Of a stretch of 37,694 nucleotides of DNA, positions 6,068-29,112 are shown one piece after another. How positions within the stretch are numbered: position 1 is the first letter of the stretch; the number at the start of each line of letters is the position of its first letter. The DNA comes from Candidatus Acidiferrum typicum (GTDB lineage Bacteria; Acidobacteriota; Terriglobia; Acidiferrales; UBA7541), in contig JAOAPV010000079.1 of assembly GCA_025463055.1 (NCBI GenBank), forward strand, positions 1 through 37,694, given 5' to 3'. The notes under the pieces were generated by a model, which did no database searches, was not told where the DNA came from, and worked only from the letters and a program-made list of their open reading frames with translations. A program made the position numbers and the translations under genes.

Positions 6068-6846
6068 CTGTCGCTACTCCCGGTAAAGGCAAGGAATGCG
6101 CCCGCTACCATCGCAGCTGCCGCAATGCCTGCTGACATCCAACCTTTTTTAAGATACGTGGTAGGCACTTCCGGCTTGGGCGGCAGATTGTATGTCTTGG
6201 GATCGCCACGCACGATAAAGAAAGCGTGAATGCCGCCGACGCTCGTGTCAGTGGGATCGTACAGGTTCACGTCATCGAAGCCTTTTTCTTCCAGGTCGCG
6301 AACTCGCTCGCGCGCCGTGTCTCGCAAGTGCTCGATTTCGCCAAATTTGATGGATTCGGTCGGGCAGGCTGTTGCGCAAGCGGGCTCAAGGCCTTCTTTT
6401 TGCCGGTCGTAGCAGAACGTGCATTTGAACGCGCGGCCGTCTTCGGGCCTGCGTTCGACAACGCCGAAGGGGCAGCACACCACGCAATATCCGCATCCGT
6501 TGCAAACGTCCGGTTGAATGTACACGCCGCCAAATTCTGTGCGCACGATCGCGCCTGTGGGACAAGCTTCCAGGCAGCCCGCGTTAGCGCAATGTTTGCA
6601 AACGTCCGAGGAAAATCCCCAGGAGAAAACTTCCGAGGCATTGCCGCCGAAACCGGGCACGGCCCCGTTCTCGACAAACTTTACGTGCCGCCACGTGGAA
6701 TGCCCCAGTGAACCAGTGTTGTCATAGGACAAAGCCCGGAAGTCGAAGCCATCGGCGGGTACCTGATTCCATTCCTTGCAAGCCACCTCGCAAGCCTTAC
6801 AGCCGATGCACAGCGTGGAATCGGTGAGGAACGCCGTGACGCTCAT
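6064..6846 (-). CDS. fdhB: Formate dehydrogenase iron-sulfur (beta) subunit
   Basis: Electron-transfer subunit with four [4Fe-4S] cluster motifs: cysteines 13/16/19/23, 83/86/91/95, 115/118/121/125 and 142/145/157/161. The first (CIGCKACEVAC) and third (CNGCGYCVVCCP) motifs match FdnH/FdoH. At 260 residues it is slightly shorter than E. coli FdnH (294). Residues 236-254 form one C-terminal transmembrane helix, as in FdnH. It would carry electrons from the molybdenum/tungsten subunit to the NrfD-type membrane subunit. Its start overlaps the end of the catalytic gene by four bases and its end overlaps the nrfD-like start by four, so all three genes form one tight operon. Confidence 0.92.
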   Translation of the reverse strand: MSVTAFLTDSTLCIGCKACEVACKEWNQVPADGFDFRALSYDNTGSLGHSTWRHVKFVENGAVPGFGGNASEVFSWGFSSDVCKHCANAGCLEACPTGAIVRTEFGGVYIQPDVCNGCGYCVVCCPFGVVERRPEDGRAFKCTFCYDRQKEGLEPACATACPTESIKFGEIEHLRDTARERVRDLEEKGFDDVNLYDPTDTSVGGIHAFFIVRGDPKTYNLPPKPEVPTTYLKKGWMSAGIAAAAMVAGAFLAFTGSSDR

Positions 6847-9800
6847 TGGGCCACCATCCTGCGCCGCGTCGGTTGGCGCATGGCATTTTCCAACTGCTTG
6901 AGGGCACGCGGGCCGCGTTCTCTGCGCCCAGGGAACACGTTGCAGAGCAGCGCCTTGGACTCCATGATTCGCACATTCGGCTCTTCGGACAGTGCGAGCA
7001 GGTCGTTGGCACTGTCCCCCTTTACCAACCCTTTGTACCCCCAGTGATAGGGCAAACCTACTTGATGAACGGTCTGCCCGTTGAGGTGAATCGGCGGCAT
7101 GCGCGAGGTGACCATGGCGCGGGCTTCCACAATCCCGCGCGCCGTCACGATCGTGACCCAGCCGCGATGCTCGACTCCAACCTGCTTCGCGAGTTCGGGA
7201 GAGATTTCACAGAAGAACTCCGGCTGAAGCTCGCAGAGATGCGAAAGGTAGCGGGACATCCCGCCGGCTGTGTGATGCTCGGTGAGGCGGTACGTTGTGG
7301 CCACGTACGGGAATCTCTCATCCGGAGAGTTTGCGTACTGATTGTCAGGCCGCTCCAGCCTATTCGCCCCGGGGTCCACTTGCTGCGCGGGATAAACGGG
7401 ATTCCTAATTGGCGATTCGAGCGGCTCGTAATGTGTGGGAAGCGGACCGTCCTTCAGCCCGCTCGGCACATAAAGCCGGCTCAAACCTTCCGCATTCATA
7501 ATGAAGGGTTTGTCGCCGCCAAGTGCGTCGTCGCCTTCCGCATTTTCCGGCGGACGGTAGTCAGGAGATTTGTTTACCGTGAAGTCGGGCACATCAAAGC
7601 CAGTCCATTCCTTCTTGTTCTCGTCCCACCAGATTAGCTTCTTGCGTTCGCTCCACGGCCGGCCATCCGGTCGAGCAGAGGCGCGATTGTAAAGAATCCG
7701 TCGATCAGCAGGCCAGGCGAAGCCCCACCCATGCCCGTAGAAGTCTCTTGGCTCGCGCTTGCGTGCGACATTTTCGTCAGGCTTCGGGAAAATACCGGAA
7801 TAGATCCAGCAGCCGCAGGAAGTCGAGCCGTCCGCTTTGAGATCCCGAAAACCTGCCACGAGCTTGCCATCTTTCAATGTTCGGCCGTTGATCTCCTGCA
7901 AGACTTCCTCGACCACCGGTTCTGCATTTGCGCCCTCCGTGGAGTAGTCCCACGTGAGCGCATTCAGCCCGGCGTTCCTTGGTCGCTGGTCCTTGCGCGC
8001 TCGCTCCTTTAGGCGGCGGCCGAGGTGATATATGAACCAAGTCTCGCTGCGCGCGTCGCCCGGCGGATCGACGGCCTTCTCGTGAAATTGATTGAGCCGC
8101 TGCGTGTTTGTGAAGCAGCCGCCTTTTTCCGTGTGGCCCGCGGCAGGGAAGAGGAACACCTCCGTGTCGATCTCCTCGGGATTCAGTTCGCCGCGGCCAA
8201 CTTCTGGCGAATCCAACCAGAAACTTGCGGTTTCGACTTCTACCATGTCGCGCACGACCAGCCACTTCAGCTTGGCCATCGCCTTGCGCTCCATACGCGA
8301 ATGGGGTCCGCCGACGGCCGGGTTTTGCCCCATCACGAAAAGGCCTTCGACATTCCCATCAGCCATTTGGATCCAGTAACCCTGGTGCGAGTGATCTCCG
8401 GTGACACGCGGCAGGAAGGTAAAGCCAAAATCATTCTCTTTAGCGGCCGCGTCGCCGTAGTACGCCTTCATCAGGCTCACAAAATACTTGTCGAAGTTGT
8501 TCCACCAACCTGTTTTGGTTTTGTGATGGTTGAAATAAGCGGCCAGATTGTCAGCGTCTTCTGCGAACAGAGGCATGGGCATGTAGCCCGGAAGAATGTC
8601 GTAGAGTGTTGGAATGTCCGTGGAACCTTGAATCGAAGCATGGCCACGCAGGGCGAGAATTCCGCCACCGGGACGCCCGATATTGCCGAGGAGCAGTTGC
8701 AGGATAGAAGCAGCGCGAATGATCTGCACGCCGTCGGAGTGTTGAGTCCAGCCTACGGCATAGCAGATGGCAGCAGTTTTGTCGGGGCCGGAGGCGGAAC
8801 AAAAAGTTCTCGCGAGCTTCAGAAACACATCCTGCGGCACACCGCAGGTGCGTTCGACAAGTTCCGGTGTGTATCGCGCAAAATGGCGCTTGAGGACCTG
8901 ATAGATGCAGCGGGGATTTTGTAGTGTCAGGTCCTGCTCGTAAATATTTTCCTGAAGCTTTTCCCCGCCGCGGTCTTTCGCATGCCCGCCAGTCTTCCCA
9001 GAATTGGTCACGTCTTTGAGCGGCGAGCCCTTGTACGCCCACGAATCCGTCTTGTACATCTTCGCGTCTTCGTTCCAGCCAGAGAAGAGGCCGTCCAAAT
9101 CCTCCGTATCGCGAAAATCGTCGCGCACAAGGATTGAAGCGTTGGTGTAATTCACGACGTACTCGCGAAAATCCTTTTCGTTTTCCAGAACGTAATGGAT
9201 GAGCGCGCCAAGAAAGACAATATCGGAACCGGCGCGAAGCGGAACCCACATGTCGGCCATTGCCGAAGTGCGGCTGAAGCGGGGGTCGACGTGAAGGACT
9301 TTTGTGCCGCGCTCGCGTGCTTCGACTACCCACTGAAAACCGACCGGGTGATTCTCTGCCATGGACGAGCCCATGATAAGAATGGCATCTGAATTCACAA
9401 GATCTTGTTGCGCTGTAGTTGCTCCGCCGCGTCCGAAGGATGCGCCCAGACCGGGCACAGTCGAGCTATGTCATATACGGGCCTGGTTGCTGACGCACAC
9501 CATGCCTAAGCCGCCTGTGAACAGCTTCTTGATCAGATAATTTTCTTCGTTGTCCAGGGTTGCGCCGCCCAGGTGGGCGATCGCGGTCGTCTGCATCAGC
9601 GACTTGCCGTCCCGCTCTTCTACAAAAGTGCGCTCGCGCGATTGCCACACGCGATCGGCGACCATGTCCATGGCCTTTTCCAACCCGATCTCTTCCCACT
9701 GTTTCGAGCGGGGCCGTCGGTAACGAACTTTCTTCAGCCGGTTCGCATGAGTGGCCAATTCAAAACTTGCCGAACCCTTCGGGCAAAGGCGGCCTCGTGA

Positions 9801-10031
9801 AATCGGCGACGCGGGGTCGCCTTCGATGGAAAGCAATTGGCCGTCTTTGTGAAAGACAAGCTGGCCACAACCCACTGCACAGTAGGGGCAAACCGATCGT
9901 GCGACCTGCGCTCCCTTGTTCCTGGCGCGTAGATTGCGAGTTCTCTCGCTCATCGATTCCGCGCCAGTGCCGTCTGCGCCCTCTACGATCTGACGAACAA
10001 GCGGCCATTTCAGCAGTAAGTCTCGTAACAT
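6843..10031 (-). CDS. fdhA: Formate dehydrogenase catalytic (alpha) subunit, selenoprotein with in-frame TGA
   Basis: Molybdopterin-bis-MGD formate dehydrogenase large subunit, oxidising formate to CO2. The coding frame is one unit of 1062 residues interrupted only by a TGA at 9471-9473 (residue 187). The upstream part ends SNQARI and the same frame resumes with HSSTVPGLGASFGRGG, which aligns with the E. coli FdnG sequence NQARV-Sec-H, so the TGA encodes selenocysteine. A SECIS hairpin lies immediately after it. Cysteines 48, 51, 55 and 83 bind the N-terminal [4Fe-4S] cluster (CPYCAVGC...CPKG). No twin-arginine signal or hydrophobic leader is seen, unlike FdnG, so the catalytic side is predicted to face the cytoplasm, as in the non-Tat FdhA form known from some proteobacteria. 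The ATG at 10031 is preceded by GAGAAGAG. Automated callers will split this gene in two or call a pseudogene. No sel genes are in the window. Confidence 0.92.
9442..9473 (-). promoter_or_regulatory. UGA selenocysteine codon and bacterial SECIS hairpin
   Basis: On the minus strand the TGA (9473-9471) is followed after 12 bases by the stem GTGCCC (9458-9453), the loop GGTCT (9452-9448) and GGGCGC (9447-9442), giving six pairs including one G-U wobble. The loop starts 18 bases after TGA, the same distance as in E. coli fdhF, and carries the same GGUCU loop recognised by SelB. A U sits at the position of the bulged U in the E. coli element. Confidence 0.88.
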
Positions 10032-22278: not shown

Positions 22279-23763
22279 ATGAGTTCAACGGAAATTTCTC
22301 CGCTATCGGCGGGAATGCCTGCTTCCCCCACCCAATCAGCGCCCGCACCACACTGGCATGACGGCGAACCGGGTGGCCACGTCGTCCAGTTCTACGCCGA
22401 CGATTCTTTTCTTCTGGAATCACTTAGCAAATTTATCGGCACCGCTTTGGTTGCCGGCGATGCCTCGGTGGTCATCGCTACTCAGTCACACCTCGATGGT
22501 CTTGCGGAGCGCCTCGCCAGCCGTGCCCTCAGCGTCCGCAAAGCCGCACGAGAAAGCCGTTACATACCACTCGACGCCGCCAAAACACTGGCCAAGTTCA
22601 TGCGCAACGGCCACCCCGACTCCGCTGCATTCGCCGCGACAATGGGCCCCGTCCTAAGCCGCGCAGCTGCCGCCGTCGAAAGCCAGAACTCCCGAGTCGT
22701 GGCCTTTGGAGAAATGGTCGCCCTGCTCTGGGCCGACGGAAACATCGACGCCGCCATCAAACTCGAGCAACTTTGGAACGATTTGTCTCGCCAACACGCC
22801 TTTTCCCTGCGCTGCGCCTATCCCATTACTGGATTTTGCAACGAAACGCATGCCGCGCCGTTCCTAAAGATCTGCTCTGAGCATTCCGCCGTAATTCCGG
22901 GTGAAAGCTACACCAGCTTGGCCTCCGAACAGGATCGCCTGCGCAACATTGCCCAACTCCAGCAAAAGGCTGAGGCACTAGAAACGGAGAAAGCTCTCCT
23001 TCAGGCACTGCGTCAGACCAAGGACGCCCTGGAAAGGGAAGTTGCCGAGCGCCGCGCCGCCCAGCGCAAGTTGCGGCATTCCGAGCTGTCCCTCCGCGAG
23101 CTTTCCGCGCATCTGCTTCGCACCCAGGACGAAGAACGCCGCCGCCTCGGCAGAGAGTTGCACGATACCGTCGGCCAATACCTTGCCGTCCTCAAAATGG
23201 GTCTCGATTCCCTGAACTCCGGCAACGAAGTCCCGGGCGAGATGGCCGCAAAGCAAATGTCCGATTGTCTCAAGCTCGTCGATCAATCCATCAAAGAACT
23301 GCGCACCATGTCCTATCTTCTTTATCCGCCCATGCTAGAGGAAATGGGCCTCAAGACCGCCATTCTCTGGTATGTAGAAGGCTTCGCCAAGCGCAGCGGC
23401 ATTGACGTTCAGCTCGATATTTCCCCTGCTCTTCACCGCCTGCCTCGCGAACTGGAGCTCGCTGCCTTCCGCGTCTTGCAGGAGAGCCTCACTAATGTCC
23501 ATCGCCATTCCGGCAGCTCCACCGCGCAAATTCGCCTTCGCGTCGAAGAGGGTTTGCTTCTTCTCGAGATCAAGGATTCCGGCAAAGGGATGCCACCAAA
23601 CATTTTGGAAGCCTTCCGCGATACTCTGGGCACCATGGGCGTCGGGCTGCGCGGTATGAACGAGCGGGTACGTCAGTTGGGTGGTACGCTTGCGTTGCTC
23701 TCTGACGGCGGTACTACCGTCAGAGCCTCGCTGCCCTGTGCGTTCGAAAGCTTCTGTTCCTAG
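22279..23763 (+). CDS. MEDS-domain sensor histidine kinase (HisKA_3 / NarX-like)
   Basis: A 494-residue soluble sensor kinase. Residues about 25-195 match the MEDS (DcmR-type) sensory domain, opening GHVVQFYADDSFLLESLSKF and containing VVIATQSHLDGLAERL. A coiled coil at about 205-265 links to a dimerisation/phosphoacceptor domain with H295 in GRELHDTVGQYLAVLK. The ATPase domain includes LQESLTNVHRHS (N box), DSGKGMPP and GVGLRGMNERVRQLGG. There is no transmembrane helix, so it senses a cytoplasmic signal; MEDS domains are associated with one-carbon or hydrocarbon-derived ligands in known proteins. It lies 84 bases before a receiver-only protein, its likely partner. No clear ribosome site precedes the ATG. 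Confidence 0.9.
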   Translation: MSSTEISPLSAGMPASPTQSAPAPHWHDGEPGGHVVQFYADDSFLLESLSKFIGTALVAGDASVVIATQSHLDGLAERLASRALSVRKAARESRYIPLDAAKTLAKFMRNGHPDSAAFAATMGPVLSRAAAAVESQNSRVVAFGEMVALLWADGNIDAAIKLEQLWNDLSRQHAFSLRCAYPITGFCNETHAAPFLKICSEHSAVIPGESYTSLASEQDRLRNIAQLQQKAEALETEKALLQALRQTKDALEREVAERRAAQRKLRHSELSLRELSAHLLRTQDEERRRLGRELHDTVGQYLAVLKMGLDSLNSGNEVPGEMAAKQMSDCLKLVDQSIKELRTMSYLLYPPMLEEMGLKTAILWYVEGFAKRSGIDVQLDISPALHRLPRELELAAFRVLQESLTNVHRHSGSSTAQIRLRVEEGLLLLEIKDSGKGMPPNILEAFRDTLGTMGVGLRGMNERVRQLGGTLALLSDGGTTVRASLPCAFESFCS

Positions 23764-23847
23764 CAACTCCCAGAAATGACCTGTCCCCCAGCAGCTTGAT
23801 GTATGTTTCGGGATCATCGCTTTTCGACTTCAACCAGGTGAAACGAG

Positions 23848-24342
23848 ATGTCCGCCAGAATTTTACTTGTCGACGATCACGATGTAGTGCGCCAGGGACT
23901 CAGGTCTCTTCTAGCCACGCGTCCGGACTGGGAGATTTGCGGCGAAGCCGCTGCTGGCGAGGAAGCGGTTCAGGCCGTTGCCAATCTCAAGCCGGACGTC
24001 ATCATCCTCGATGTCACCATGCCCGGCGGCATGAGCGGGCTCGAAGCCGCGTCTCGCATAATCGCCCTCGGCAGCAGCACCCGCATCCTCATCTTCACCA
24101 TGCACGAATCTCAGCGCATGGCGGTCGATGTGCGCGAAACCGGCGCTCACGGCTTCGTCCAAAAGTCCCAAGCCGCGCGCGATCTCATCGTCGCCGTGGA
24201 ACGCCTCCTCGCCGGCGGCACATTCTTCGGTACCGAGCCCAACGACCAGCCTGGAATCAAGAAGTCAGACAAACCTGCCTCCGCGGCCAAAGCCGCCCCC
24301 GGCTCTGGCTATACCTTCTGCACTGTTTTCTCTTTCGCTTGA
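23848..24342 (+). CDS. Single-domain response regulator (receiver only)
   Basis: A 164-residue NarL-class receiver domain. D9/D10 form the acidic pocket, D55 (IILDVTMPGG) is the phosphoacceptor, T84 and K106 complete the switch residues, so it should be phosphorylatable. The NarL/LuxR helix-turn-helix that normally follows is absent: after about residue 128 there is only a short Lys/Ala/Pro-rich linker and a hydrophobic end. No LuxR domain follows downstream. It sits directly after the MEDS kinase and probably receives phosphate from H295. Output may be by protein interaction, or it may act as a phosphate sink. The stop lies six bases from the convergent stop of the iron exporter gene. Confidence 0.85.
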   Translation: MSARILLVDDHDVVRQGLRSLLATRPDWEICGEAAAGEEAVQAVANLKPDVIILDVTMPGGMSGLEAASRIIALGSSTRILIFTMHESQRMAVDVRETGAHGFVQKSQAARDLIVAVERLLAGGTFFGTEPNDQPGIKKSDKPASAAKAAPGSGYTFCTVFSFA

Positions 24343-24348
24343 TTGCCC

Positions 24349-25308
24349 TTACGAGCTGCCGATCAGATAGCCGGCTAGGAACACCAAGAATCCTCCTACA
24401 ACCACCTGAAATGTGGCCTGCAAGAAGGGCGTATCCATGTAGCGGTGCCGAATGTAAGCGATCGCGGCCAGCTCGAAACCGACCACAATAATGGCCACCA
24501 GCGTCGCAATGTGGAAATTTCCTATCAGAAATGGCAGCGTATGCCCCAACCCGCCCGCCATTGTCATGAGACCGGTTATCGCTCCTCGCAGCCAGGGCGA
24601 CCCCCGACCGGTCAGCGATCCGTCGTCCGATTGCGACTCCGAGAAGCCCATCGAAATGCCCGCGCCGATCGAGGCTGCCAGCCCAACGCGAAACGCGTCC
24701 CAGCTATTGTGGGTCGCAAAAGCCGCTGCGAAAAGCGGCGCCAGGGTTGAGATCGACCCGTCCATGAGCCCCAGAAGCCCCGGCTGTACCACCTGAAGCA
24801 AAAACAATCTTTGGTGCGACGCGTCCTCCGCGGCTTTTGCACTCAGCGTAAGGTGTTTTTCCTCCAGATCGCCCGCCGTTTGCGTGTGCTTCCGCTCCTC
24901 ATCCGCCAGCCTGTTCAGCAATTCACGTGTCGAAGCATCCGTGGTCCGCGCAATCGCCTTTTGATAAAAGCGCTGCGCTTCCATCTCCATGACTTCTGCT
25001 TGCCTTCGCGCTACGTTCACGCCTAGCGGCCGCACCAACCACGTCGGGTTCCGCCGGATGAAGCCTTTCACGTTCTCCCGCCGGATCAGCGGAATGCGGT
25101 CGCCAAAGCGTTCCTTAAACATCGCCAGCAGCCGGTCGCGGTGTACCGCTTCCTCTTCACGCATTCCCTCGAACATGTCCGCGGTAGCCGGATAAGACTC
25201 GCGCAACGCGTCCGCAAACTCGCCGTAAATCCGCCCATCCTCTTCTTCCGACGAAATCGCCAGCGCCAGAATCTCCCGCTCCGTCAAATCCTTGAATTTC
25301 TTCAGCAT
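24349..25308 (-). CDS. mbfA: MbfA-type membrane-bound ferritin-like iron exporter
   Basis: A 319-residue fusion of an N-terminal ferritin-like/erythrin domain (about 1-160) to a VIT1/CCC1 transporter domain (about 165-319). The first part carries the Glu/His ligands expected of a di-iron helical bundle: E21-E23, EEEAVH near 51-56, EVMEMEAQRF near 105-113 and DEERKH at 136-141. The second part begins PGLLGLMDGSISTLAPLFAAAF and has about five membrane helices with GISMGFSESQSDDGS. This order matches MbfA of Bradyrhizobium and Agrobacterium, which exports iron and protects against iron and peroxide stress. It probably lowers cytoplasmic Fe2+. No Fur or Irr box could be recognised upstream. It is convergent with the receiver gene. 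Confidence 0.88.
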   Translation of the reverse strand: MLKKFKDLTEREILALAISSEEEDGRIYGEFADALRESYPATADMFEGMREEEAVHRDRLLAMFKERFGDRIPLIRRENVKGFIRRNPTWLVRPLGVNVARRQAEVMEMEAQRFYQKAIARTTDASTRELLNRLADEERKHTQTAGDLEEKHLTLSAKAAEDASHQRLFLLQVVQPGLLGLMDGSISTLAPLFAAAFATHNSWDAFRVGLAASIGAGISMGFSESQSDDGSLTGRGSPWLRGAITGLMTMAGGLGHTLPFLIGNFHIATLVAIIVVGFELAAIAYIRHRYMDTPFLQATFQVVVGGFLVFLAGYLIGSS

Positions 25309-25473: not shown

Positions 25474-27357
25474 TTAGGCGGGCAGGCGCATTTTTTTCAG
25501 CAATTCAGCAAACCGTGGATCTTGGTGGAGGCTTTTCATTAGCGGACTGTTCTTCACTTCGGGTGCACCGGGGTCGCGCTGTCGAACAGCGCGATCCATC
25601 CAGTGAAACGCATTTTCGATGTCTCCGCGGTAAGCGTAGGCCTCGGCGATTTGGTATGCGCCGTCATTTTGATGGGTGGCGATGAGTTTTTTCAAAGCGT
25701 TCTCGGACTCCTCACCACGACCGGCCCCATAGTAAGCTAGCGCCTCGCCAGACAATTTCTCCCATTCACCAGTCTCCTTCGCCATCTCCGCCAGCGCCTC
25801 CTGCTGGCGCCCTTCCGCTAAAAGAATCTGGCCCTCAGTGAGGTGAAGCGATGAAAGCTGCGGGTTCAACTCTTGAGCCTTTTGTAATGCGGCGCGAGCC
25901 TCTTCATGTCGCCCGAGAACATATAGCTCATAACCTAACGCCAGATGAAAATTGGCCCGCAGCGGGTCAAGCGCGATCGCCTGCTTGTACAGCGCTAGTG
26001 CTTCCTCCATCCGTCCCAGGATTCTAGCCAGGTACGCCTGATTGCTTAAGACCGTAGCGCTACCCGGCGCCAACAGCCCAGCTCTCTTCAGAGAAGCATC
26101 CGCTCCTTCCCAATCCCAGTCGCAGTTAATCTGAACCATGCCCAATCCCAAGTACCCGGCGGCCAGGTTGCGATCAAGCGCAATCGCCTTCTCTGCGCTT
26201 TCGCGTGCGCGCCGAAACCCGTCGGTACTCTCAATGACCGCGACTCGGGCCATTGATACCAAAACTTGCGCTCGCTGTGCCCATGCAGGCGCATATTTCG
26301 CGTCTAGCTTGATCGCTTGTTCTGCATAGGAAAGCGCCTTCTGGAGATCCTCTCTGTCTTGTCCCCGGGCCGCAAAGTATTGGCCCTGCAGGTAAGCCTG
26401 ATAGGCTTCGGGACTCGTGCTTCGCGAGGTTGCCGACACCTCCGCACCCGTGGAGCTCAGCAGTTTCACTTGCAAGGCGTCGGCTACGGCTCGCGCGATC
26501 TCGTCCTGAGCTGCGAAAATATGGGGGATCTCACGATCGTATGTTTCCGACCAAAGTTGAAATCCATCGTCAACTTTCGTGAGCGCTGCCGTGATTCGTA
26601 CGTGATCGCCTTCCTTCCGCACGCTTCCTTCAAGCACATTGGCGACTCCAAGCTTATGTCCCACACTGCGCACGTCTTCGTTCTTGCCCTTGAACTGAAA
26701 CGCCGAGGACCGTGCAACCACCTTCAGTCCCGGTATTTTGGTGAGATCGGTAATCAGTTCCTCGGCCAGCCCATCGGAAAAATATTCTTGATCTTTGCCC
26801 GCACTCAGGTTGGCAAACGGCAGCACGGCGATGGAAGTAGTCTTCGCCGAACGACGCGTCGCCTTCTTTCGAACGAGCCAAAGCTCGCCCGCCGTTGCGG
26901 CTGCCGCGACCAGCGCTAACACAGCTACCGCCACCAGCCTCCGGAGATGCCTTCTTCCGAAAGATTTTCGCCGTTCGGAAGCTCCCCTTTCGGCGCCAAC
27001 CTTTTCTTTGGCCCCGCCTGAAATGGGCAAGTCCGGACTTTCGGTCGAACCCTCCTCTATCACGGGTGCAATGAACCGGTATCCCCGTTTGGTCACCGTT
27101 TCGATAAACACAGGTTTGTCGGGCCGGTCCCCCAGGGTCTTTCGGATTTCCAGAATGTACTTTCTGAGGATCTCCGGGTTGACGTAGGTTTCCGGCCACA
27201 CGGCCTCCAGAAGCTCGTCCTGGGTGACGACCCGTCCCGCGTTTTCGACCAAATAACGCAGCACGTCGTACGCTTTCGGCGGGATTTGCACGCGTTCTTG
27301 CCCGCGCAAAAGGGAATGGTTTGCAGTATCAAGGCGGAAAGACTGAAAGGACTTCAT
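25474..27357 (-). CDS. Winged-helix / TolB-like / TPR transmembrane regulator
   Basis: A 627-residue protein of a class abundant in Acidobacteriota. Residues 1-100 form an OmpR/CadC-type winged helix (PPKAYDVLRYLVENAGRVVT, TVTKRGYRFIAPV). A single transmembrane helix lies at about 140-162. The periplasmic part begins with a TolB N-terminal/FlgO-like domain at about 174-300 (SIAVLPFANLSAGKDQEYFS, VLEGSVRKEGDHVRITAAL). It is followed from about 315 to 600 by tandem TPR units (AYLGLGMVQINCDWDWEGAD, LALYKQAIALDPLRANFHLA). This resembles CadC-like one-component membrane regulators that bind DNA inside and sense outside. It is divergent from the GntR-FCD-phosphatase gene across a 309-base gap, so it could regulate it. 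No Shine-Dalgarno sequence is seen before the ATG. Confidence 0.88.
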   Translation of the reverse strand: MKSFQSFRLDTANHSLLRGQERVQIPPKAYDVLRYLVENAGRVVTQDELLEAVWPETYVNPEILRKYILEIRKTLGDRPDKPVFIETVTKRGYRFIAPVIEEGSTESPDLPISGGAKEKVGAERGASERRKSFGRRHLRRLVAVAVLALVAAAATAGELWLVRKKATRRSAKTTSIAVLPFANLSAGKDQEYFSDGLAEELITDLTKIPGLKVVARSSAFQFKGKNEDVRSVGHKLGVANVLEGSVRKEGDHVRITAALTKVDDGFQLWSETYDREIPHIFAAQDEIARAVADALQVKLLSSTGAEVSATSRSTSPEAYQAYLQGQYFAARGQDREDLQKALSYAEQAIKLDAKYAPAWAQRAQVLVSMARVAVIESTDGFRRARESAEKAIALDRNLAAGYLGLGMVQINCDWDWEGADASLKRAGLLAPGSATVLSNQAYLARILGRMEEALALYKQAIALDPLRANFHLALGYELYVLGRHEEARAALQKAQELNPQLSSLHLTEGQILLAEGRQQEALAEMAKETGEWEKLSGEALAYYGAGRGEESENALKKLIATHQNDGAYQIAEAYAYRGDIENAFHWMDRAVRQRDPGAPEVKNSPLMKSLHQDPRFAELLKKMRLPA

Positions 27358-27666
27358 CTAGCGGGCCCGTTTCGCTCGGAGGAGAGCATCACGCCGAAGT
27401 TTATATAGATTATCGCGACACCCCCTTGGATACCTCACGTCTTCAGGTTGACAGCCTGCGGATGTTCTGGTCCCGTTAATCATCCTGTTTTCAATAGCAT
27501 GGCTCTTCACAAGGACTCCACACAAACCGGACGCGAACTTCACACCTGTTTCGGCTTAGCTTCGTACTGTGCTCCCCTGACGAGCCAGGTCACACATCGT
27601 AGCTCGTAAATTTTGGTACGTATCGGCCTCCCGACCCGGCCGAGAAACGTAGGAGGAGCAAGCACA
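27358..27666. other. Divergent intergenic region, TPR regulator / GntR-PP2C fusion
   Basis: A 309-base gap expected to hold both promoters. On the minus strand a TATATAA element (27401-27407) lies 44 bases from the regulator start; on the plus strand TTGACA (27448-27453) has no matching -10 at 16-18 bases. No clear palindromic operator was found. Confidence 0.35.
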
Positions 27667-29112
27667 ATGGTTCTACTTAGTGACGAAGACAACAAGACGC
27701 TCGGGGGTGTGCCCCCTAAGGCCCAAACGCTGGGGTTCGGGCGGACGCGTTTGGCTAGAGAGCTATTTAACGGCCGTTACCGGCCGGGAGAGTCCCTGCA
27801 ACTCGACAGAATTGCCACCGAACATGGCATGGACAATGACTCGATCTTAAGAGCCTTTGCCGAATTCCAGGCACTTGGGTTGGTGACTCTTGCCGGCAAC
27901 TTCTCTGCGATCGTTCATTCTCCTAATCCGAAAGAAATGCAAGAGGCCTATGAGATACGGGCCGCATTGGAGGAAATCGGGGGACGCACTGCGGCGCGAG
28001 CTCTGAAAGGCAACACAGCGGCATTACAACGCGAACTGGACGCCATGCGCTCCGCATTTCGCCACAGCGATCTGGATTCTTTCGTGGAACACGACGTAAC
28101 ATTTCATCGAAGCATCCTGCAAGCGTCTCGCAACGAAGTCTTACTTCAGGTGTGGGACAGCTTGGCTGTCGACCTGCGAATTCGAGGAGCCATAGGAAAG
28201 GTCTTGACGGATCTTCGCGAGGTAGTTGAATCGCACCAACCCATTGTCGACGCTCTTGAGAAAGGCCGGGGAAGGGAAGCCGGACTCCTGTTGCGCAATC
28301 ACGTCGAAACGCTCTCGGAGTACATAAGAAACTCCGAATCGGACTCGGGACCTCACGGGGCTCTTCGCAGTGATTTGGAGGGCGCCAAGGATGTTCAACG
28401 GGCGTTCTTCCCGTCACAGAGCCTATCGATTCCATGTCTATCGTGCGAAACCTTTTACAAGCCTGCTCAGGAAATCGGAGGCGACTACTACGACTTTTTC
28501 CCCCTGCAAGAGGGGCGATGGGGCATCGCGATCGGAGATGTGTCCGGAAAGGGAATCGGCGCGGCCTTGATCATGGCTAGTCTCCAAGCTTCCCTTAGGG
28601 CCCAGGCATCGCATTCCCATTTTGACCTTTCCACGCTCATACGGGACGTTAATCGGCTCGTGTATGAATCCTCTCCGACGCATTTCTTTGCATCACTTTT
28701 CTACGCGGAATATGAGCCGGCCACGCGCATGCTCAAATACGTGAATGCCGGCCACAATCCACCAATTGTGCTCCGCCCGCACGAAGGCCAACCTCAGATG
28801 TTCCGTTTAAGATCCGGCGGTATGCCCGTGGGGATCTCCCCGGACTCGCAATTTCCGACGACGACCTTTCAGTTCGAAATTGATGACCTTTTCGTCGCCT
28901 ACACGGACGGAATCACAGAAGTAGAGAACTCTAACGGCGAACTGTGGGGAGAGCGAAGCCTTAAAAAACTTCTATCCTCGTCCAGCCATCGGGCGCCAGA
29001 CCAAATCATAAAGTGCATCCTCGACGAGGTCGCAACCTTTGCAGATCGTCTCCCACAACGAGACGACATGACCCTCGTAGTGATGCAAGTACAACCTGGC
29101 TGCAGCGTCTGA
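27667..29112 (+). CDS. GntR-FCD sensor domain fused to PP2C/SpoIIE (RsbU-like) phosphatase
   Basis: A 481-residue protein starting at ATG 27667, preceded by AGGAGGAGC; a longer TTG start at 27613 is less likely. Residues 25-85 are a GntR-type winged helix (ELFNGRYRPGESLQLDRIA, FQALGLVTLAGNFSAIV). Residues 92-222 are an FCD domain (YEIRAALEEIGGRTAAR) with the complete metal-site set D143, H147, H190 and H212 at the usual spacing. Residues 235-476 are an RsbU/SpoIIE PP2C phosphatase: AKDVQRAFFPS, GGDYYDF (D273), GDVSGKG (D291), YTDGITE (D414) and RDDMTLVV (D466/D467), so catalytic aspartates are intact. The HTH recognition segment (DNDSILRAF) lacks the usual SRTPVREAL arginines, so DNA binding may be lost. 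The expected substrate is a phosphorylated anti-anti-sigma (STAS) protein, not encoded nearby. Confidence 0.88.
   Translation: MVLLSDEDNKTLGGVPPKAQTLGFGRTRLARELFNGRYRPGESLQLDRIATEHGMDNDSILRAFAEFQALGLVTLAGNFSAIVHSPNPKEMQEAYEIRAALEEIGGRTAARALKGNTAALQRELDAMRSAFRHSDLDSFVEHDVTFHRSILQASRNEVLLQVWDSLAVDLRIRGAIGKVLTDLREVVESHQPIVDALEKGRGREAGLLLRNHVETLSEYIRNSESDSGPHGALRSDLEGAKDVQRAFFPSQSLSIPCLSCETFYKPAQEIGGDYYDFFPLQEGRWGIAIGDVSGKGIGAALIMASLQASLRAQASHSHFDLSTLIRDVNRLVYESSPTHFFASLFYAEYEPATRMLKYVNAGHNPPIVLRPHEGQPQMFRLRSGGMPVGISPDSQFPTTTFQFEIDDLFVAYTDGITEVENSNGELWGERSLKKLLSSSSHRAPDQIIKCILDEVATFADRLPQRDDMTLVVMQVQPGCSV

Follow-up and report, generated by a model that had tools for sequence, protein, structure and literature searches.

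Apparent replacement of a sensor by a GntR-FCD module in an RsbU/SpoIIE-type phosphatase of Candidatus Acidiferrum typicum

We describe a protein of Candidatus Acidiferrum typicum in which a GntR-like winged helix and an FCD domain are joined, in one frame, to a SpoIIE/RsbU-type PPM phosphatase. It is encoded in a stretch of 37,694 nucleotides (contig JAOAPV010000079.1; hereafter the window). Judged from the sequences compared, the fusion is evidently a real, rare and inherited sensor swap. We lean, with moderate confidence, towards a model in which the FCD domain would gate the phosphatase, the winged helix would no longer read DNA and the target would be a STAS protein. The coordinates of the features are given in Table 1.

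Gene and domain organisation

The gene is a single uninterrupted frame from the ATG to the stop codon and encodes 481 amino acids. According to Pfam, residues 282-475 match SpoIIE (PF07228; E=1.2e-51, 175.8 bits against a cut-off of 25) and the protein belongs to the FCD family by domain (E=3.3e-22); GntR is matched only weakly, at residues 28-76 (E=0.0073; score 16.4 bits, cut-off 27). Both the NCBIfam matches, which are all below cut-off, and the PDB sequence matches to the whole fusion are split in the same way: the N-terminal half matches regulators (GntR-type in NCBIfam) and the remainder matches phosphatases (SpoIIE, SiaA and RssB in NCBIfam). A profile of the N-terminal part gave PDB sequence matches to regulators only. 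At E<=0.001 the fusion copy is the sole FCD match in its own genome.

The sequence-only reading had seen here a complete GntR-FCD unit followed in one frame by the phosphatase. The frame is borne out: there is no internal stop, and orthologs carrying FCD and phosphatase in one frame occur in three other genomes, which rules out an assembly chimera or a chance frame. The FCD part of the unit also stands, whereas the winged helix, with its GntR match below cut-off, is degenerate and cannot be called complete.

Table 1. Positions in the window of the fusion gene, its parts and its divergent neighbour
Feature	Position	Strand	Evidence
Fusion, 481 aa: GntR-like winged helix, FCD, SpoIIE/RsbU-type PPM phosphatase	27667..29112	+	Frame, Pfam, orthologs
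Ribosome-binding sequence AGGAGG, just 5' of the fusion gene	27651..27656	+	Sequence
Winged helix (aa 28-84), degenerate, with substitutions at the DNA-contact positions	27748..27918	+	GntR Pfam match below cut-off; alignment
FCD sensor domain, aa 93-214	27943..28308	+	Pfam E=3.3e-22
Putative FCD metal ligands D143 (28093-28095), H147 (28105-28107), H190 (28234-28236), H212 (28300-28302)	28093..28302 (span)	+	
Linker aa 216-240, D226-S227-G228 then helix into the phosphatase	28312..28386	+	Secondary-structure prediction alone, of low confidence
PPM phosphatase region aa 241-476 (Pfam SpoIIE 282-475)	28387..29094	+	Pfam, alignment, structure matches
Divergent neighbour: OmpR-type DNA-binding domain and TPR	25474..27357	-	Pfam

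Orthologs and inheritance

Among the 89 family genomes searched, unbroken orthologs are found in G032, G064 and G069 (64%, 67% and 62% identity to the query); the three cover query residues 1-481, 23-476 and 23-481 in one frame, and that of G064 has an ambiguous stretch right before D414. The four unbroken copies, query included, are 57-66% identical among themselves, and over residues 28-476 their pN is 0.20-0.27 against a pS of 0.68-0.83. A copy on the MAG contig JAUTXJ010000153.1 (labelled Acidobacteriaceae) has the identity and coverage of that of G032 and probably comes from the same genome. A fifth copy, in G024 (locus L113 / G024:C17:71536-72233), is broken: it has a one-base frameshift near residue 186 and, further on, a TAA. 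Either this lineage is losing the fusion or its MAG contains errors there.

In a tree of 117 phosphatase domains, built without duplicates, GntR/context loci, short matches or sequences containing stops (the broken G024 copy among them), the four unbroken fusions group together (support 1.0) within a clade of 25 sequences (support 0.88). Four of the 21 other members of the latter were scanned (L006, L032, L034 and L035). No phosphatase relatives were found closer than these acidobacterial GAF-SpoIIE proteins (identity up to 46%), which carry GAF, in three of the four also PDZ, where the fusion has GntR-FCD. Since the phosphatase nests among the scanned GAF-SpoIIE enzymes, the tree is consistent with a sensor swap, and the simplest reading is that one fusion event would have put GntR-FCD at the sensor position.

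Distribution of the architecture

In the family, 46 of the 89 genomes matched the whole protein at E<=1e-40; four cover the FCD domain in one frame, one more is split, and the remaining matches begin at residue 209 or later. The N-terminal profile found the fusion in 5/95 genomes of the order, one of these broken. In the class, 57/399 genomes matched at 1e-15, and beyond the five known loci the only frames longer than 400 aa were those of G634 and G624, which were rejected as further fusions: they are plain GntR-FCD genes with a run-on upstream frame. In the phylum, the N-terminal profile matched 9/396 genomes (the query genome and eight with plain GntR-FCD) and the whole-protein profile 47/396 at 1e-58, the FCD domain being covered by the query only and the rest beginning at least at residue 201. 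No further GntR-FCD-SpoIIE fusion was found in the searches of the order (95 genomes), class (399) and phylum (396), where at most seven candidates per genome were scored in the class and four in the phylum and divergent fusions could escape. A scan of named contigs, with patterns derived from the query protein alone, gave one relative spanning both halves (L031) among the best 80 of 544 relatives.

FCD itself is present in 69/89 family genomes. Nine of the matches lie in frames longer than 400 aa, namely the four fusions, three run-on frames and two proteins in which GntR-FCD is followed by a cysteine-dioxygenase-like domain; SpoIIE occurs in the four fusions only. A widespread architecture is not supported, given the few genomes that carry the fusion in the family, order, class and phylum searches. 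The sequence-only reading was not aware of a described protein of this kind, and we found none: no open-access paper combines GntR, 'FCD domain' and SpoIIE (subscription journals lie outside this coverage), wider open-access searches, judged by titles and abstract openings, gave nothing on such a fusion, and neither GntR nor FCD appears in the open-access main texts on PP2C/SpoIIE phosphatases that were examined.

The cysteine-dioxygenase-like proteins represent another fusion of FCD to an enzyme within the same genus (L178:947-2206 in G028 and L179:1090-2349 in G030). In both, GntR is above the Pfam cut-off and CDO_I falls just short of its own cut-off of 23 bits (22.5 and 21.7). Whole-protein matches to this fusion are found in 3/250 class genomes searched, and G595:C70:42175-43368, by whole-protein match only, is 47% identical to it over 9-409.

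The FCD site

The residues D143, H147, H190 and H212, taken from the outset as a complete FCD site, are all present in this copy with a spacing of 4/43/22. They match the metal site of Ps5454 (N144/H148/H192/H214, spacing 4/44/22) and the His triad of TM0439 as these are given in the corresponding passages of PMC7674646. For DgoR and CitO, passages of PMC7674646 and PMC4746285 report that metal at the FCD site mediates carboxylate binding, and Arg98 of the fusion takes, by motif, the place of DgoR R102 (PMC7674646, same passages). With FadR-family GntR-FCD regulators (TM0439, Ps5454, DgoR, CitO) the fusion shares the FCD domain and, in this copy, an Asp/His metal site of nearly the same spacing; it differs from them in a winged helix without the usual DNA-contact residues and in having a phosphatase as its output.

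Arg98, H147 and H190 are kept in 4/4 fusions and the whole metal site in 3/4, the G069 ortholog having Ala at 143 and Gln at 212. By its residues, a putative divalent-metal Asp/His-His-His site is present in this copy and in two of the three other unbroken orthologs. Given the Ala and Gln of G069, either metal would be dispensable there or that copy would sense differently. Among eight plain GntR-FCD relatives, Asn is found at 212 in three closely related sequences (L121, L122 and L124) and at 143 in one (L127), so two of the four putative ligands vary naturally.

The winged helix

Concerning the N-terminal domain, FadR positions were assigned by motif and spacing, as the FadR sequence itself is absent from the alignments. 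On this numbering, the position of E34 is Leu46 and that of R49 is Leu61 in 4/4 unbroken fusions, against Glu and Arg in 8/8 plain relatives; none of the 4 fusions has the wing Gly, which 8/8 plain relatives keep, and the position of T44 is Asp56 in 4/4 fusions. The broken G024 copy likewise has Leu46, Asp56 and Leu61. The DNA-contact residues of the FadR family are therefore replaced in all unbroken fusions, and the lack of an SRTPVREAL-type motif, pointed out before any alignment, is confirmed in the sequence and in the alignment. The contact table in section 5 of PMC4494728 gives E34 electrostatic bonds with R35, R45 and R49, so two bonded partners have changed together to a hydrophobic pair.

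Conservation is inverted between the fusions and the plain relatives. Identity in the HTH segment (residues 46-68) is 40.6% in the four unbroken fusions (6 pairs, including G064 with its ambiguous stretch) vs 67.5% in six plain relatives (15 pairs), and in the FCD domain 67.7% vs 35.5%; the six are those left of the eight after L122 and L124 were dropped as near copies of L121, were picked by similarity to the fusion N-terminus and are more diverged among themselves than the fusions. Of five regions compared, the HTH segment is the least conserved and FCD the best conserved in the fusions; among plain relatives conservation peaks in the HTH segment. Values for plain relatives over the linker and phosphatase columns reflect overhang without meaning and were disregarded. 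The columns invariant in the four fusions number 3/23 in segment 46-68, 63/126 in FCD, 110/236 in the phosphatase and 2/27 in the N-terminal tail (1-27), which lies outside the five-region comparison and is less conserved than the HTH segment. With columns treated as independent, segment 46-68 differs from FCD at p=0.001 (Fisher).

The winged-helix region is full length in the four unbroken copies. In segment 46-68, pN is below pS in 6/6 pairs, although this covers only 23 codons and pS is near saturation; in each of the six pairs this segment has a higher pN (0.30-0.42) than FCD (0.13-0.26). The excess of synonymous change, together with Leu46, Asp56 and Leu61 in all five copies, suggests that the winged helix may be a reworked scaffold more than a product of neutral decay. 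There is good evidence, from the replaced residues and the inverted conservation, that it is unlikely to read DNA in the canonical way. The sequence-only reading had called it a dimerisation or vestigial module; the loss of DNA reading agrees with the alignment, and 'vestigial' may be too weak a word for a domain with the same three residues in five copies.

Phosphatase domain and linker

D273, D291, D414, D466 and D467, the metal-binding aspartates of the family, are invariant in 37/37 aligned phosphatase sequences and are kept in all four unbroken copies; the set described at first sight is thus all there. In Foldseek the structures ranked highest are the RssB phosphatase domain of P. aeruginosa, the RsbU domain of Rv1364c and SiaA, and the 50 of 378 matches listed are all PPM-type phosphatases. 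The AF2 model of the full protein is good only in the phosphatase (mean pLDDT 75.4), the N-terminal half being weak, and a model of the N-terminal part from two sequences is poor (51.9). A search for FCD relatives in viral contigs, made to deepen the fold alignment, found none. In the AF2 prediction, of low confidence and for the monomer only, helices at 202-223 and 231-246 are separated by a break at 224-230. Within it, D226-S227-G228 follows the last FCD helix and does not vary among the four unbroken copies.

The fusion is like RsbU/RsbP/RsbZ and RssB-type PPM phosphatases (PF07228) in its catalytic domain, in the N-terminal place of the sensor and in the helix before the phosphatase. RsbU proper has an RsbU_N domain which binds RsbT, whereas the fusion protein gave no RsbU_N match in Pfam. 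The sensors of PPM phosphatases named in section 18 of PMC12143880 are the RsbU N-terminal domain, PAS, GAF, response receiver and HAMP; FCD is not one of them.

Genomic context and candidate partners

The fusion gene stands alone, with a divergent upstream and a convergent downstream neighbour. A 64% identical homolog of the divergent neighbour lies beside the G064 ortholog and a distant one (22.6%) near the broken G024 copy; none was found in the fetched flanks of G032 and G069. The promoter scan, the repeat scan and an upstream comparison with G064 gave nothing convincing: upstream of the gene the repeat scan found no compact palindrome, and the only inverted repeats were two imperfect ones whose arms are separated by 65 and 68 nt.

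The proposed partners were sought in the whole genome. No STAS or RsbW-like protein was matched by Pfam among the nine neighbouring ORFs scanned; the genome as a whole contains 15 SpoIIE, 11 STAS and 18 HATPase_c_2 matches (eight of the last above cut-off), so candidate RsbV/RsbW-like partners exist away from the fusion. Based on a crude motif scan, Asp-Ser-Ser-Gly occurs in 2/11 STAS loci, C49 (beside a HATPase_c_2 gene) and C43, and these two proteins are candidate targets of the phosphatase.

The same genome has a stressosome-like cluster (G000:C51:5020-7656, L174) of RsbRD_N-STAS, STAS, HATPase_c_2 and SpoIIE proteins followed by an RsbU_N histidine kinase. By gene order, we take the HATPase_c_2 protein to be RsbT-like and the SpoIIE protein RsbX-like; this stressosome may drive the kinase and not an RsbU phosphatase.

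Other loci were noticed in the window. An in-frame TGA at 9471-9473 interrupts the gene at 6843-10031 (-), presumably that of a formate dehydrogenase alpha subunit. Its context is NQARI*HSSTVPGLGASFGRGG, which we assume to be the expected selenocysteine place of such enzymes. According to Pfam, 24349-25308 (-) encodes a rubrerythrin domain fused to a VIT1-family domain, and 22279-24342 a histidine kinase with a MEDS sensor and, behind it, a receiver domain for which no output domain was matched.

Proposed mechanism and alternatives

FCD regulators are dimers which are altered by ligand binding. The fusion would be a soluble, probably dimeric serine/threonine PPM phosphatase that has captured a GntR-FCD metabolite regulator as its sensor. 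The FCD helical bundle would bind a small molecule, in all likelihood a carboxylate coordinated by a divalent metal, and the FCD dimer would change; the change would pass through the last FCD helix and the short Asp-Ser-Gly linker to the alpha0/switch helices and turn the phosphatase on or off. The active enzyme would dephosphorylate a STAS-type anti-anti-sigma protein whose gene lies elsewhere, and the winged helix, its DNA reading gone, would be retained as a packing or dimerising module. With an FCD dimer that changes on ligand binding and a helix that enters the phosphatase, transfer to the switch helices would be a natural mechanism; PMC12143880 reports control through a coiled-coil linker by exchangeable sensors for RsbU and proposes it for others. 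We see about an even chance that a metabolite-binding one-component repressor module has become the sensor of a partner-switching phosphatase with its DNA face rebuilt for a structural or protein-docking role, a Leu-Leu pair having taken the place of the Glu-Arg pair by which FadR organises its DNA contacts. The points which count against the full model are Ala143 and Gln212 in G069, the break in G024, the rarity in the family, the lack of a partner gene among the neighbours scanned, the weakness of the AF2 models in the N-terminal half, where linker and dimer geometry would have to show, and a conservation comparison of four fusion sequences.

The FCD domain and the winged helix might instead be only a dimerisation scaffold or a protein-docking site with no small-molecule gating, as the G069 ortholog without two of the four ligands would allow; RsbU is controlled by a partner protein and not a small molecule (PMC12143880), and the leucines at the former DNA-contact positions could form a protein surface. 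We regard this as unlikely, since conservation among the fusions is highest, of the five regions, in FCD, which has Arg98, H147 and H190 constant and most copies keeping the whole site, and varies far more in the plain relatives.

Continued DNA binding with altered specificity, giving a DNA-located or DNA-regulated phosphatase, is very improbable: the E34, R49 and wing Gly positions are replaced throughout, every fusion has Asp where T44 would be, conservation is lowest, among the five regions, in the HTH segment, and the only upstream repeats are the two imperfect, widely spaced ones. The full-length winged helix with pN below pS speaks for such binding, as does a speculation in PMC12088040 that some PP2C enzymes may be DNA-activated. 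A recent, poorly constrained fusion with little function, heading for loss, would fit its presence in so few genomes of the order and the broken copy; it is improbable in view of four copies which have diverged to 57-66% identity with all five aspartates in place and with pN far below pS over residues 28-476.

Significance

What is new is a sensor variant on a known enzyme type; the enzyme itself is of no new kind. If the FCD-gated model is true, this is an FCD-gated protein phosphatase which directly links central metabolites to anti-anti-sigma phosphorylation. To the known sensors of PPM phosphatases (PAS, GAF, receiver, HAMP) it would add metabolite-binding repressor modules, and it would test the exchangeability of sensors on a dimeric coiled-coil linker, an idea put forward in PMC12143880. 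It is also a tractable example of how a transcription factor can give up DNA reading yet retain its ligand sensing, and the change can be followed residue by residue. As FCD ligands can be screened by thermal shift, a partner-switching input in Acidobacteriota could become experimentally accessible.
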